36,654 bases of DNA from Pseudomonadota bacterium (GTDB lineage Bacteria > Pseudomonadota > Alphaproteobacteria > Sphingomonadales > SMXR01), in the NCBI GenBank assembly GCA_022574255.1, contig JACZSK010000017.1, forward strand, positions 1 through 36,654, in the 5' to 3' direction. The position numbers were made by a program, and so were the translations under genes. Shown in pieces: positions 32,036-35,627 of the stretch. The stretch's first letter is position 1. The number at the start of each line of letters is the position of its first letter. The notes beneath the pieces were generated by a model. It made no database searches and had not been told where the DNA came from. It was given only the letters and a program-made list of their open reading frames with translations.

Positions 32036-32995
32036 CTACTCGAATGCCTCTTCCCATGTCCCCTGCGTGGCGGCCTTGGAATATTCCGTGGCGCGGCTCT
32101 CGAAGAAATTGGCATGCTCGACCGCGTTGAGCATGGTGTCGAGCCAGGGCAGCGGGTTTGTTTCAACCCGGTAAATCGGCTGCAGGCCCAGTTGCATCAG
32201 CCGCCGGTCGGCGATATAGCGCAGGTACTGCTTGATTTCATCCGCCGCCAATCCCTCGACCGGACCCATTTCGAAGGCCAGGTCGACGAAGGCGTCCTCG
32301 TGGCCGATGATGGTCTCGCAGGCTTTGTACAGGTCGCGCTGCAACTCCTCATTCCAGATTTCCGGGTTCTCCGAAACGAAAGTGCGGAACAGCTTGATGA
32401 TGCTGTCACAATGCAGCGATTCATCGCGCACCGACCAGGAAATGATCTGGCCCATGCCGCGCATCTTGCCGAAACGCGGGAAATTCAGCAGCATGGCAAA
32501 AGACCCGAACAGCTGCAGCCCCTCGGTGAAGGCGCCGAAGACCGCCAGGGTCATGGCAATGCCCTTCAGCGACTTGGTGTCGAACTGCTGCATGTAATCA
32601 TATTTGTCGCGCATTTCCTTGTAGCGCAGGAAGGCGGAATATTCCGCTTCAGGCATGCCAATGGTATCCAGAAGATGCGAATAGGCGGAAATATGGATGG
32701 TCTCCATATTCGAGAAGGCCGACAGCATCATCTGTATCTCGGTTGGCTTGAACACGCCGGCGTAATGCTTCATGTAGCAATTGTTGACCTCGATGTCGGC
32801 CTGGGTGAAGAAGCGGAAAATCTGGGTCAGCAGGTTGCGTTCCGGCTCGCTCAGATTATTGCGCCAATCCTTCACATCGTCGGCCAGCGGCACCTCTTCA
32901 GGCAGCCAGTGAACCCGCTGTTGGGTCAGCCAGGCCTCATAGGCCCAGGGGTAACGAAAAGGTTTGTAAACCGGATTTTCGGTCAACAGTGTCAT
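32036..32995 (-). CDS. nrdB: Class I ribonucleotide reductase, small (R2) subunit
   Basis: R2 holds the di-iron cofactor that generates the tyrosyl radical for ribonucleotide reduction. The 319-residue protein shows the ligand set of a class Ia-type R2: NMETIHISAYSHLLDTIG contains Glu, His three residues on and the radical Tyr seven residues on. TEGLQLFGSF and SVRDESLHCDS supply the remaining Glu and Glu/His. There is no N-terminal ATP-cone. The C-terminal tail ends TQGTWEEAFE and would dock R1. The ATG has AGGA upstream and follows nrdA by 44 bp, so the two are co-transcribed. Confidence 0.95.
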   Translation of the reverse strand: MTLLTENPVYKPFRYPWAYEAWLTQQRVHWLPEEVPLADDVKDWRNNLSEPERNLLTQIFRFFTQADIEVNNCYMKHYAGVFKPTEIQMMLSAFSNMETIHISAYSHLLDTIGMPEAEYSAFLRYKEMRDKYDYMQQFDTKSLKGIAMTLAVFGAFTEGLQLFGSFAMLLNFPRFGKMRGMGQIISWSVRDESLHCDSIIKLFRTFVSENPEIWNEELQRDLYKACETIIGHEDAFVDLAFEMGPVEGLAADEIKQYLRYIADRRLMQLGLQPIYRVETNPLPWLDTMLNAVEHANFFESRATEYSKAATQGTWEEAFE

Positions 32996-33039: not shown

Positions 33040-34953
33040 TCACTGGCAAGACAGGCATTCCTCGTAATTGTCGTCTTCACTTGCCCCCGTGCCCGCCACG
33101 GCGGCGATCCCGGCACTGGCGGCGGCAATGGGAATTTCAATGTCGTCCGGCAAAGGCAGCGGCAGCGGCAAGCCGCTTCCATTGCCATTGGTGTGGACAA
33201 AGGTCGTCGTGGTCTGGGTGGCCACAACTTCGGCCCGCTGGATTGATTTCGAGCGGCAGTAATACAGGCTTTTCAGGCCCTGCTTCCAGGCCTGGAAATG
33301 AATCTGGTGCAGGTCGCGCTTGTGAACATCGGCGGCCAGGAAAATATTCACCGATTGCGCCTGGCTGATCATCGGCGCGCGATCGGCGGCCAGCTCAACA
33401 ACCCAGCGCTGGTCGATCTCGAAAGCCGTCTTGAAGACATCTTTTTCATGGGCGTCGAGAAAATCCAGATGCTGAACCGACCCTTCGTTGACGGTGATCG
33501 AACTCCACACGCTTTCGTTGTTCTCGCCCTTTTTCTCCAGCAGCTTTTCCAGCGCCTGGTTGCGCACATTGTACGAGCCCGACAGGGTCTTGTGGACGAA
33601 TGAATTGCCGGCGATGGGCTCAATGCCCGGGCTGGCGCCGCCACAGATGGTGGAGATCGAAGCCGTCGGCGCGATCGCGGTCTTGTTCGAGAAACGCTCC
33701 ATGATGCCGTAATCGGCGGCATCGGGACAGGCGCCGCGCTCTTCCGCCAGCGTTATGGAGGCGGCATCGACGCCTTTCTTTATCAGGCTGAAAATCTTGT
33801 TGTTCCAGACTTTGGCCATGACCGATTCCATGGGCACGCTCTTGGCCTGCAGGAAGGAATGGAAACCCATCACCCCCAGGCCGACGCTGCGCTCGCGCAT
33901 GGCGGCATATTTCGCCTTGGCCATAACATCGGGCGCGCGCTCTATGAAATCCTGCAACACGTTGTCGAGGAAACGCATGACGTCTTCGATGATATATTCG
34001 TTGTCCTTCCAGGTCTCGAAATGATCCAGGTTCAGCGACGACAGGCAGCAGACCGCGGTGCGTTCGTTGCCCAGATGGTCGGTGCCCGTGGGCAGGGTAA
34101 TCTCGGCGCAGAGGTTCGACGTTCTCACCGTCAGCCCGGCCAGCTTGTGATGCTCGGGAATCTGCCGGTTCACGGTATCGGAAAAAATCAGATACGGCTC
34201 GCCGGTCTCGATGCGCGCGGTCAACAGCCTGATCCACAGGCCACGCGCCGAAATGGTGCGCAACGGGGTATGGTCCTTGGGGCTGACCAGCGCCCAGTCC
34301 TCGTCTGCCTCCACAGCGCGCATGAAGGCGTCGGGCACCAGCACGCCGTGATGCAGGTTTGGCGTCTTGCGGTTGGGGTCGCCCCCCGTGGGCCGGCGAA
34401 TTTCGCAGAATTCCTCAATTTCGGGATGACTGACCGGCAAATAAACCGCCGCCGAGCCGCGCCGAAGTGAGCCCTGGCTGATTGCCAGGGTCAGCGAATC
34501 CATGACCCGCACGAAAGGCACGATGCCGGAGGTCTTGCCGTTGGCGCCGACCTTTTCGCCGATTGAGCGCAGGTTGCCCCAGTAAGAGCCGATGCCGCCA
34601 CCCTTGGCCGCCAGCCATACGTTCTCTGTCCACAGGTCGACGATGCTCTCCAGGCTGTCGTTGGCCTCGTTGAGGAAACAGGAAATGGGCAGGCCGCGCT
34701 TGGTGCCGCCGTTGGACAATATCGGGGTTGCCGGCATGAACCATAATTTGGAAATATAATCATACAGGCGCTGGGCGTGGGCCGCGTCATCGCCGTAATA
34801 GCTGGCGACGCGGGCGAATATATCCTGGTAGCTCTCACCGGGCAGCAGATAGCGGTCTTTCAGCGTCTCCTTGCCGAAATCGGTCAGCAGCTTGTCGCGG
34901 CTGCGGTCAATGGTGACCGGCGCGCCATGCTCAAATTGTGTGACTTCAAACAC
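33040..34953 (-). CDS. nrdA: Class I ribonucleotide reductase, large (R1) subunit, no ATP-cone
   Basis: R1 converts NDPs to dNDPs. Visible motifs are PILSNGGTKRGLPISCFL (redox Cys), SNLCAEITLPTG (catalytic-thiyl Cys), AVCCLSSLNLDHF (redox partner Cys), LYYCRSKSIQRAE (radical-transfer Tyr pair) and the C-terminal CLSCQ pair that regenerates the active site. GTG at 34953 with AAGGG upstream gives 637 residues. The E. coli form has 761 because it carries an N-terminal ATP-cone, which is absent here. The open frame extends upstream to 35067 but looks non-homologous. It is the first gene of the nrdAB operon; its regulatory region contains NrdR and DnaA boxes. Confidence 0.96.
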   Translation of the reverse strand: MFEVTQFEHGAPVTIDRSRDKLLTDFGKETLKDRYLLPGESYQDIFARVASYYGDDAAHAQRLYDYISKLWFMPATPILSNGGTKRGLPISCFLNEANDSLESIVDLWTENVWLAAKGGGIGSYWGNLRSIGEKVGANGKTSGIVPFVRVMDSLTLAISQGSLRRGSAAVYLPVSHPEIEEFCEIRRPTGGDPNRKTPNLHHGVLVPDAFMRAVEADEDWALVSPKDHTPLRTISARGLWIRLLTARIETGEPYLIFSDTVNRQIPEHHKLAGLTVRTSNLCAEITLPTGTDHLGNERTAVCCLSSLNLDHFETWKDNEYIIEDVMRFLDNVLQDFIERAPDVMAKAKYAAMRERSVGLGVMGFHSFLQAKSVPMESVMAKVWNNKIFSLIKKGVDAASITLAEERGACPDAADYGIMERFSNKTAIAPTASISTICGGASPGIEPIAGNSFVHKTLSGSYNVRNQALEKLLEKKGENNESVWSSITVNEGSVQHLDFLDAHEKDVFKTAFEIDQRWVVELAADRAPMISQAQSVNIFLAADVHKRDLHQIHFQAWKQGLKSLYYCRSKSIQRAEVVATQTTTTFVHTNGNGSGLPLPLPLPDDIEIPIAAASAGIAAVAGTGASEDDNYEECLSCQ

Positions 34954-35181
34954 CCCGGCTTTTCCCTTCACGAAGCACCGCCAAAATCTGCCGAAAAACC
35001 CTTTAAAACCAGTCCCGAACGCCCAGAAAACAGAGCCTCCCGGGCAGGAAGGCAACCCCTGCTCCAACTAAATCAATTCTGATCCAGACCCACAATCAGA
35101 CTGCGATGGGCAATCTAACATATTGAAATATATACCAGATTTCCTACGCTTGCCCCGGTTGACCCCCAAGGCGTGGAAGCG

Positions 35182-35211
35182 AGTATGCAGTGCTTTTTCC
35201 CCCGGCGTCAA
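35182..35211 (-). promoter_or_regulatory. candidate nrdA promoter
   Basis: On the minus strand TTGACG (complement of 35206-35211) and CATACT (complement of 35182-35187) are 18 bp apart. The -35 falls inside the proximal NrdR-type box, a repressor arrangement. Transcription would begin near 35175, giving a leader of about 220 nt. Confidence 0.45.
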
Positions 35212-35252
35212 GATGCTGTGTGACAAAATCGTAAAATCACTACATCTTGTGG
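35206..35252. promoter_or_regulatory. pair of NrdR-type boxes upstream of nrdA
   Basis: Box 1 is 35206-35221 (CGTCAAGATGCTGTGT) and box 2 is 35237-35252 (TCACTACATCTTGTGG). Compared with the known acaCwAtATaTwGtgt palindrome, box 2 matches 12 of 16 positions and box 1 10 of 16. They are 31 bp apart centre to centre, the spacing usual for tandem NrdR boxes. NrdR is a zinc/ATP-cone repressor of ribonucleotide reductase genes. Confidence 0.62.
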
Positions 35253-35279
35253 ATAAGAGCGGGGGAAACCTGTGGAAAA
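35248..35279. promoter_or_regulatory. DnaA boxes upstream of nrdA
   Basis: TGTGGATAA at 35248-35256 is a perfect DnaA box (TTATCCACA on the other strand). TGTGGAAAA at 35271-35279 differs from it by one base. The first overlaps NrdR-type box 2 by five bases. In E. coli DnaA also binds near the nrdAB promoter, so replication-linked control of this operon is plausible. Confidence 0.62.
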
Positions 35280-35403
35280 GGGTGGAAAAGTTAATTTCCC
35301 GCGTCCTGATGTAACCCGCACGGACGGGCCGCAAGCGCCTCGACCTCCCGGATTGTTTGTTGCCAGCCTTGTCCGGAGGCCCGAAAAAGAGTATCAGTGA
35401 CTC

Positions 35404-35432
35404 TTGGGGTTGTGTTGTAAAGAAGTAATAAT
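35404..35432 (+). promoter_or_regulatory. candidate promoter of the small peptide-lipoprotein pair
   Basis: TTGGGG (35404-35409) and AATAAT (35427-35432) are 17 bp apart. The -10 is a five-of-six match; the -35 is poor. A GANTC site (GACTC, 35399-35403), the methylation target of CcrM, lies directly upstream. Confidence 0.38.
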
Positions 35433-35453
35433 CGCGGCTAAGGGGAGTCGCTA

Positions 35454-35627
35454 ATGTTACGCGCAATGGCAGCCTTGCTGATTGCAGCCATCTTTGCAAC
35501 TATACCAGTCGGCCTGCCGGCAAATCCATTGTCGTCGGAAAATACCCAACAAAGCCCACTGGGACTGGAGACGTCCAGCGTGCTTGAAATGGTTGCAATG
35601 ATAGTTGACGGTGAAAACAGCCAATGA
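35454..35627 (+). CDS. 57-residue exported peptide of unknown function
   Basis: This short gene encodes a signal-peptide-like start (MLRAMAALLIAAIFATIPVG) and a short polar mature part (NPLSSENTQQSPLGLETS then SVLEMVAMIVDGENSQ). AAGGGGAG lies six bases before the ATG, the strongest ribosome site in the area. Its TGA overlaps the ATG of the next gene by two bases (ATGA), which indicates translational coupling. No family is recognised. Confidence 0.68.
   Translation: MLRAMAALLIAAIFATIPVGLPANPLSSENTQQSPLGLETSSVLEMVAMIVDGENSQ

Follow-up and report, generated by a model that had tools for sequence, protein, structure and literature searches.

The nrdAB operon of E. coli is controlled by both NrdR and DnaA (PMC12176259, PMC8203912, PMC11317965). 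NrdR that is loaded with dATP plus ATP or ADP binds boxes that lie approximately three turns apart (PMC9110341, PMC12176259, PMC12051234); the NrdR tetramer binds two boxes, introducing a kink of almost 90 degrees into each of them (PMC9110341, PMC12176259), and a linker of 15-17 bp is required between the boxes (PMC12051234). E. coli DnaA prefers pairs of boxes that are 2 or 3 bp apart (PMC11317965), and it can act on nrdAB as an activator and as a repressor (PMC8203912). The matching of dNTP supply to replication initiation is not settled; in Caulobacter, high dNTP levels are reported to delay entry into S phase, an effect that is unexplained (PMC12186491). The locus described here is a compact promoter with bases that seem to be recognised both by the dATP sensor and by the initiator.

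The stretch of DNA that was analysed (the window; 36,654 nucleotides) is the whole of one contig (G000:C19) of a 3.07-Mb draft genome. It encodes, on the minus strand, the alpha subunit of a class I ribonucleotide reductase (nrdA, 33040-34953; NF006577 above cut-off) and, 3' of it, the beta subunit (nrdB, 32036-32995; NF007186 above cut-off, with a PF00268 match). Alignment with relatives placed the nrdA start codon at the GTG at 34953. A Pfam domain search revealed no domains in NrdA other than the barrel and all-alpha domains, and no ATP-cone in either NrdA or NrdB. Since both subunits are devoid of the ATP-cone, NrdR would carry more weight: no allosteric dATP brake is apparent on the class I enzyme, and dATP feedback would rest on NrdR. 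A first-pass annotation had proposed combined control by NrdR and DnaA in front of nrdAB, a proposal that depended on the genome having an nrdR gene. This gene was present (TIGR00244 over cut-off), its product having a Zn-ribbon and an ATP-cone, and the genome also encodes dnaA (PF00308 match), with the box-reading signature DHTTV.

The sole promoter-like match in 34900-35500 was a sigma70-like TTGACG-18-CATACT on the minus strand (35182-35211), in which the -35 TTGACG (35211-35206) and the -10 CATACT (35187-35182) are 18 bp apart; a scan of the same interval identified no second sigma70-like promoter on either strand. Transcription of nrdA is predicted to start near 35175, which would give a leader of approximately 222 nt. 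The leader had no Rfam match to an RNA element. On its minus strand, at 35035-35053, GCCTTCCTGCCCGGGAGGC forms a hairpin resembling a terminator, with a run rich in T after it; this is a possible attenuator or a product of chance. A separate contig of the same draft (G000:C59:1-131, L201) opens with a 131-bp, 98.5% identical copy of 35166-35296, spanning the promoter and the DnaA array, after which unrelated DNA follows; this copy may reflect a strain mixture, a rearrangement or a real duplication.

Two NrdR boxes lie over and upstream of this promoter on the minus strand. A matrix scan returned the distal box, CCACAAGATGTAGTGA (35237-35252), as the best NrdR site in the window and the proximal box, ACACAGCATCTTGACG (35206-35221), as the second best, the latter being the weaker of the two at 9.7 bits. 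They are 31 bp apart, start to start, as the first-pass annotation had reported, with a 15-bp linker. The pair was the top 31-bp pair in the window, with a score of 26.1 bits compared to 4.7 for the next, and this score was matched in none of 200 first-order Markov windows (mean maximum, 7.6). The matrix was set by hand from the consensus acaCwAtATcTwGtgt, such that scores near the threshold should not be over-read. The -35 TTGACG constitutes the final six bases of the proximal box, in line with the earlier claim that this box covers a candidate -35. The region has the sequence features of an NrdR operator: two 16-bp palindromes, separated by a linker within the 15-17 bp range, over the RNA polymerase site upstream of a ribonucleotide reductase operon.

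Weaker NrdR-type pairs with 31-bp spacing were also observed in the window genome before nrdR (G000:C2, near 22391; L001, L203) and before nrdJ (G000:C55; L013). There was no perfect DnaA box near either of these pairs, so within this genome the combination of NrdR and DnaA sites is specific to nrdAB.

A perfect DnaA box, TTATCCACA (35248-35256, minus strand), shares five bases (35248-35252) with the distal NrdR box, in agreement with the overlap that had been noted previously, and these five bases include the GC pair that is conserved in NrdR boxes. A further DnaA box, TTTTCCACA (35271-35279, minus strand), lies beyond it; the first-pass annotation was correct as to its presence, although the spacer measures 14 bp and not the stated 15 bp. 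The two strong boxes are therefore separated by a 23-bp step, or two turns, with a poor DnaA-like site between them, TTTCCCCCG (35260-35268, minus strand; 6/9 match), whose function in the window is doubtful. A weaker site, TTTTCCACC (35281-35289, minus strand; 8/9 match), was absent from the earlier account. The word TTWTCCACA occurred only twice in the window, both times upstream of nrdA, and 59 times in the 3.07-Mb genome, compared to 16 times for the reversed control word; the window word count, together with conservation, places the consensus DnaA boxes at this promoter above background. The box TTTTCCACA recurred at the same or the next offset in G002, G013, G019, G039 and G058, and the offset of TTTCCCCCG was occupied by a perfect DnaA box in G001, G058 and G094. 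Pairs of boxes that fit the 2-3 bp rule of E. coli were present in G001, G058 and G019, and not clearly in the window.

The DnaA boxes sit between divergent genes, with a 57-aa ORF at 35454 and a predicted small protein at 35624 on the plus strand, which would suit boxes that serve these genes or merely titrate DnaA. This explanation was considered very improbable: no plus-strand promoter-like site was found in 34900-35500, and the distance of the boxes from the nrdA operator is maintained even though the upstream neighbours vary among relatives.

On this architecture, the probable reading is that nrdAB has an NrdR-repressed promoter whose distal operator is contested by DnaA and NrdR, with DnaA raising expression near the time of initiation. 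NrdR on both boxes would cover the -35 and repress nrdAB. DnaA would occupy the upstream boxes, the best of which extends into the distal NrdR box, and binding of DnaA to TTATCCACA would be incompatible with binding of NrdR to the kinked distal box. Such mutual exclusion is likely, because the overlap includes the conserved NrdR GC pair and NrdR kinks its box by approximately 90 degrees (PMC9110341). Because NrdR depends on the two boxes together, DnaA might serve as an anti-repressor, with DnaA occupancy weakening NrdR and raising nrdAB expression around initiation, whereas at high dATP levels NrdR would win. Competition of this kind might couple dNTP supply to replication initiation, as the first-pass annotation had proposed. 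The analysis establishes the sequence architecture, its uniqueness, its conservation and the presence of nrdR and dnaA; the binding of each protein, the exclusivity, the direction of the effect and its timing are inferred from these.

Relative to the inferred nrdA start, the DnaA sites have their centres some 75 to 110 bp upstream, a position from which direct activation by DnaA is also possible. Alternatively, both proteins might act at nrdAB without competing, with DnaA as a co-repressor or an independent activator, or bound together with NrdR on another face. Sites upstream of the -35 are in a possible activator position, and in E. coli nrdAB is repressed by DnaA when the level of DnaA-ATP is high (PMC8203912). 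Joint action of this type nevertheless appears unlikely, since the overlap contains the conserved NrdR GC pair, NrdR distorts its box strongly (PMC9110341), and the offset of the overlap is fixed among relatives. Because activation as well as repression of nrdAB by DnaA is known in E. coli, the DnaA effect may have either sign here.

To place the overlap among relatives, comparison-set families (f1 and f3-f8) were used, with genomes designated by G numbers. All seven family members that have an nrdA upstream region keep the CATACT -10, a distal box at 31 bp and a proximal box carrying TTGAC, which in one of them reads TTGCG. Across the order a tandem NrdR pair at 31 or 32 bp was found in f1, f4, f6, f7 and f8, and more weakly in f3; the large family f5 has a different layout. 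A DnaA box at the same 5-bp overlap (offset -4 from the distal box) was present in seven of the nine species of f1 and f7 as TT[A/G]TCCACA: as TTATCCACA in the window genome (G000), G003 and both f7 species, and as the weaker TTGTCCACA in G001, G002 and G004. It was lost in two species of one genus of the window genome's family and was sporadic elsewhere (G058 of f4 and G041 of f6). The expectation that the boxes would be conserved in close relatives was thus upheld for the promoter, the NrdR boxes and most of the DnaA overlaps. The two species without the interlock, the three with the weaker TTGTCCACA, the 14-bp gap between the strong boxes and the ability of E. coli DnaA to repress nrdAB weigh against the reading of DnaA as a competitor that raises nrdAB expression; at the same time, the intact, weak and lost forms are natural variants that offer a ready-made comparison.

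These alignments also bear on whether the operator is one for NrdR only, with the DnaA box a chance extension of an NrdR arm. The bases CCACA are common to both motifs, so an NrdR arm that starts with CCACA needs only TTAT in front of it, and consistent with chance such an extension was missing throughout f8 and from most of f4. Within f1 and f7, however, TT[A/G]T stood in front in seven of nine species, compared to a frequency of 4.9% for TT[AGT]T in their flanks (binomial 2e-8, assuming independence of species, which does not hold). The four DnaA-only bases agreed in six to seven of the nine species, compared to three to five for most other flank columns, and the flanks around the overlap box were otherwise scrambled; in the NrdA tree f1 and f7 grouped with moderate support (89/88) and on long branches. 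Furthermore, the second upstream box, TTTTCCACA or TTATCCACA, owes nothing to NrdR. Chance extension by TTAT was rejected as the main reading on the basis of conservation, and an NrdR-only operator is considered quite unlikely. In three Sneathiella-type genomes (L024, L026 and L027), TTTTCCACA instead joins a CCACAAG..GTTGACG element on the -35 side.

DnaA-like sites within 70 bp upstream in f1, f7 and f4 were all in one direction (20 forward, none reverse), a same-strand array that the first-pass annotation had missed. They lay mostly at offsets -16, -26/-27 and -37 to -39, which are steps of 11-12 bp, the same step as that of E. coli boxes 2 or 3 bp apart (PMC11317965). The observed power of this periodicity was reached in 10 of 500 shuffles, and the spacing is suggestive only. 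A second DnaA/NrdR composite, in the opposite orientation, was observed in G001 (L008) approximately 500-540 bp upstream of nrdA.

A perfect alphaproteobacterial LexA-type word, GTTCN7GTTC, was observed upstream of nrdA in all 28 genomes of f4 and all six of f6 (for example, L099, L072 and L070), and in none of those of f1, f3, f7 and f8; the only LexA-like match in the window was GTTCGGGACTGGTTT at 35020-35006. This distribution suggests SOS control of nrdA in f4 and f6, two families that for the most part lack the DnaA interlock.

The composite word TTDTCCACAWNATNTNG was sought in 385 genomes of the class Alphaproteobacteria and matched in 88 of them. Inspection of 71 matching places assigned 14 to gcrA (six families), six to the region before nrdJ (four families) and one to dnaA, the other 50 being at other or unidentified genes. 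The full pattern, a DnaA box with both NrdR boxes, occurred among the 385 only in the window genome and one other, where it was not at an identified nrd gene; the exact layout is therefore bound to its lineage. Upstream of nrdJ, which encodes a class II reductase, a DnaA box was fused to an NrdR-type box in four other families (L193, L194, L195, L305, L310 and L311).

Upstream of gcrA, two NrdR-type boxes spaced by exactly 31 bp were found in 16 of 28 genomes, which were the best family matches and not a random sample; other spacings from 17 to 45 bp gave zero to six. Counting 32 bp, the figures were 17 of 28 genomes and 12 of 20 families, compared to two of 1120 simulated regions and one of 202 control pieces. 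Examples include L248, L249, L255, L261, L262, L264, L266 and L184-L189, and some pairs are interlocked with TTATCCACA. The gcrA gene of the window genome itself has no tandem NrdR-type pair. An interlock at the gcrA, dnaA, nrdR or nrdJ loci of this genome was considered and rejected, since none of them contains a perfect DnaA box. No paper connecting gcrA with NrdR was found in the open-access literature. The fusion of an NrdR box with a DnaA box may, tentatively, be a recurrent alphaproteobacterial device at nrdAB, nrdJ and the master cell-cycle gene gcrA. If this is true, the dATP-sensing NrdR would oppose DnaA at several S-phase promoters, such that the dNTP level would gate the cell cycle directly. 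The gcrA recurrence is a lead that places the nrdAB finding in a wider pattern, and its occurrence in other Alphaproteobacteria may bear on the reported delay of S phase by high dNTPs in Caulobacter (PMC12186491).

When compared to known systems, the locus resembles E. coli nrdAB in having tandem NrdR boxes with a 15-bp linker over the promoter and DnaA boxes nearby (PMC12176259, PMC8203912, PMC11317965). It differs in that the E. coli NrdR boxes are at and downstream of the promoter, whereas those of the window are at and upstream of the -35, and in that the two E. coli DnaA boxes are 3 bp apart, compared to 14 bp for the strong boxes here; no report of NrdR and DnaA sites with bases in common at E. 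coli nrdAB was found. The use of DnaA as a transcription factor in Alphaproteobacteria would be shared with Caulobacter, in which DnaA controls gcrA and other genes needed for S phase, ribonucleotide reductase being a proposed target (PMC8203912); the papers found describe no involvement of NrdR there. As at Salmonella nrdDG, an NrdR box overlaps the site of another regulator, and competition was proposed there (PMC2892513); in that case the partner is FNR and the gene encodes the anaerobic reductase, whereas here the partner is DnaA and the enzyme is the class I reductase. No description of NrdR and DnaA sites with bases in common was found in the open-access literature. The base-level interlock of the two sites therefore looks new, while dual control of nrdAB by NrdR and DnaA is already known from E. 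coli.
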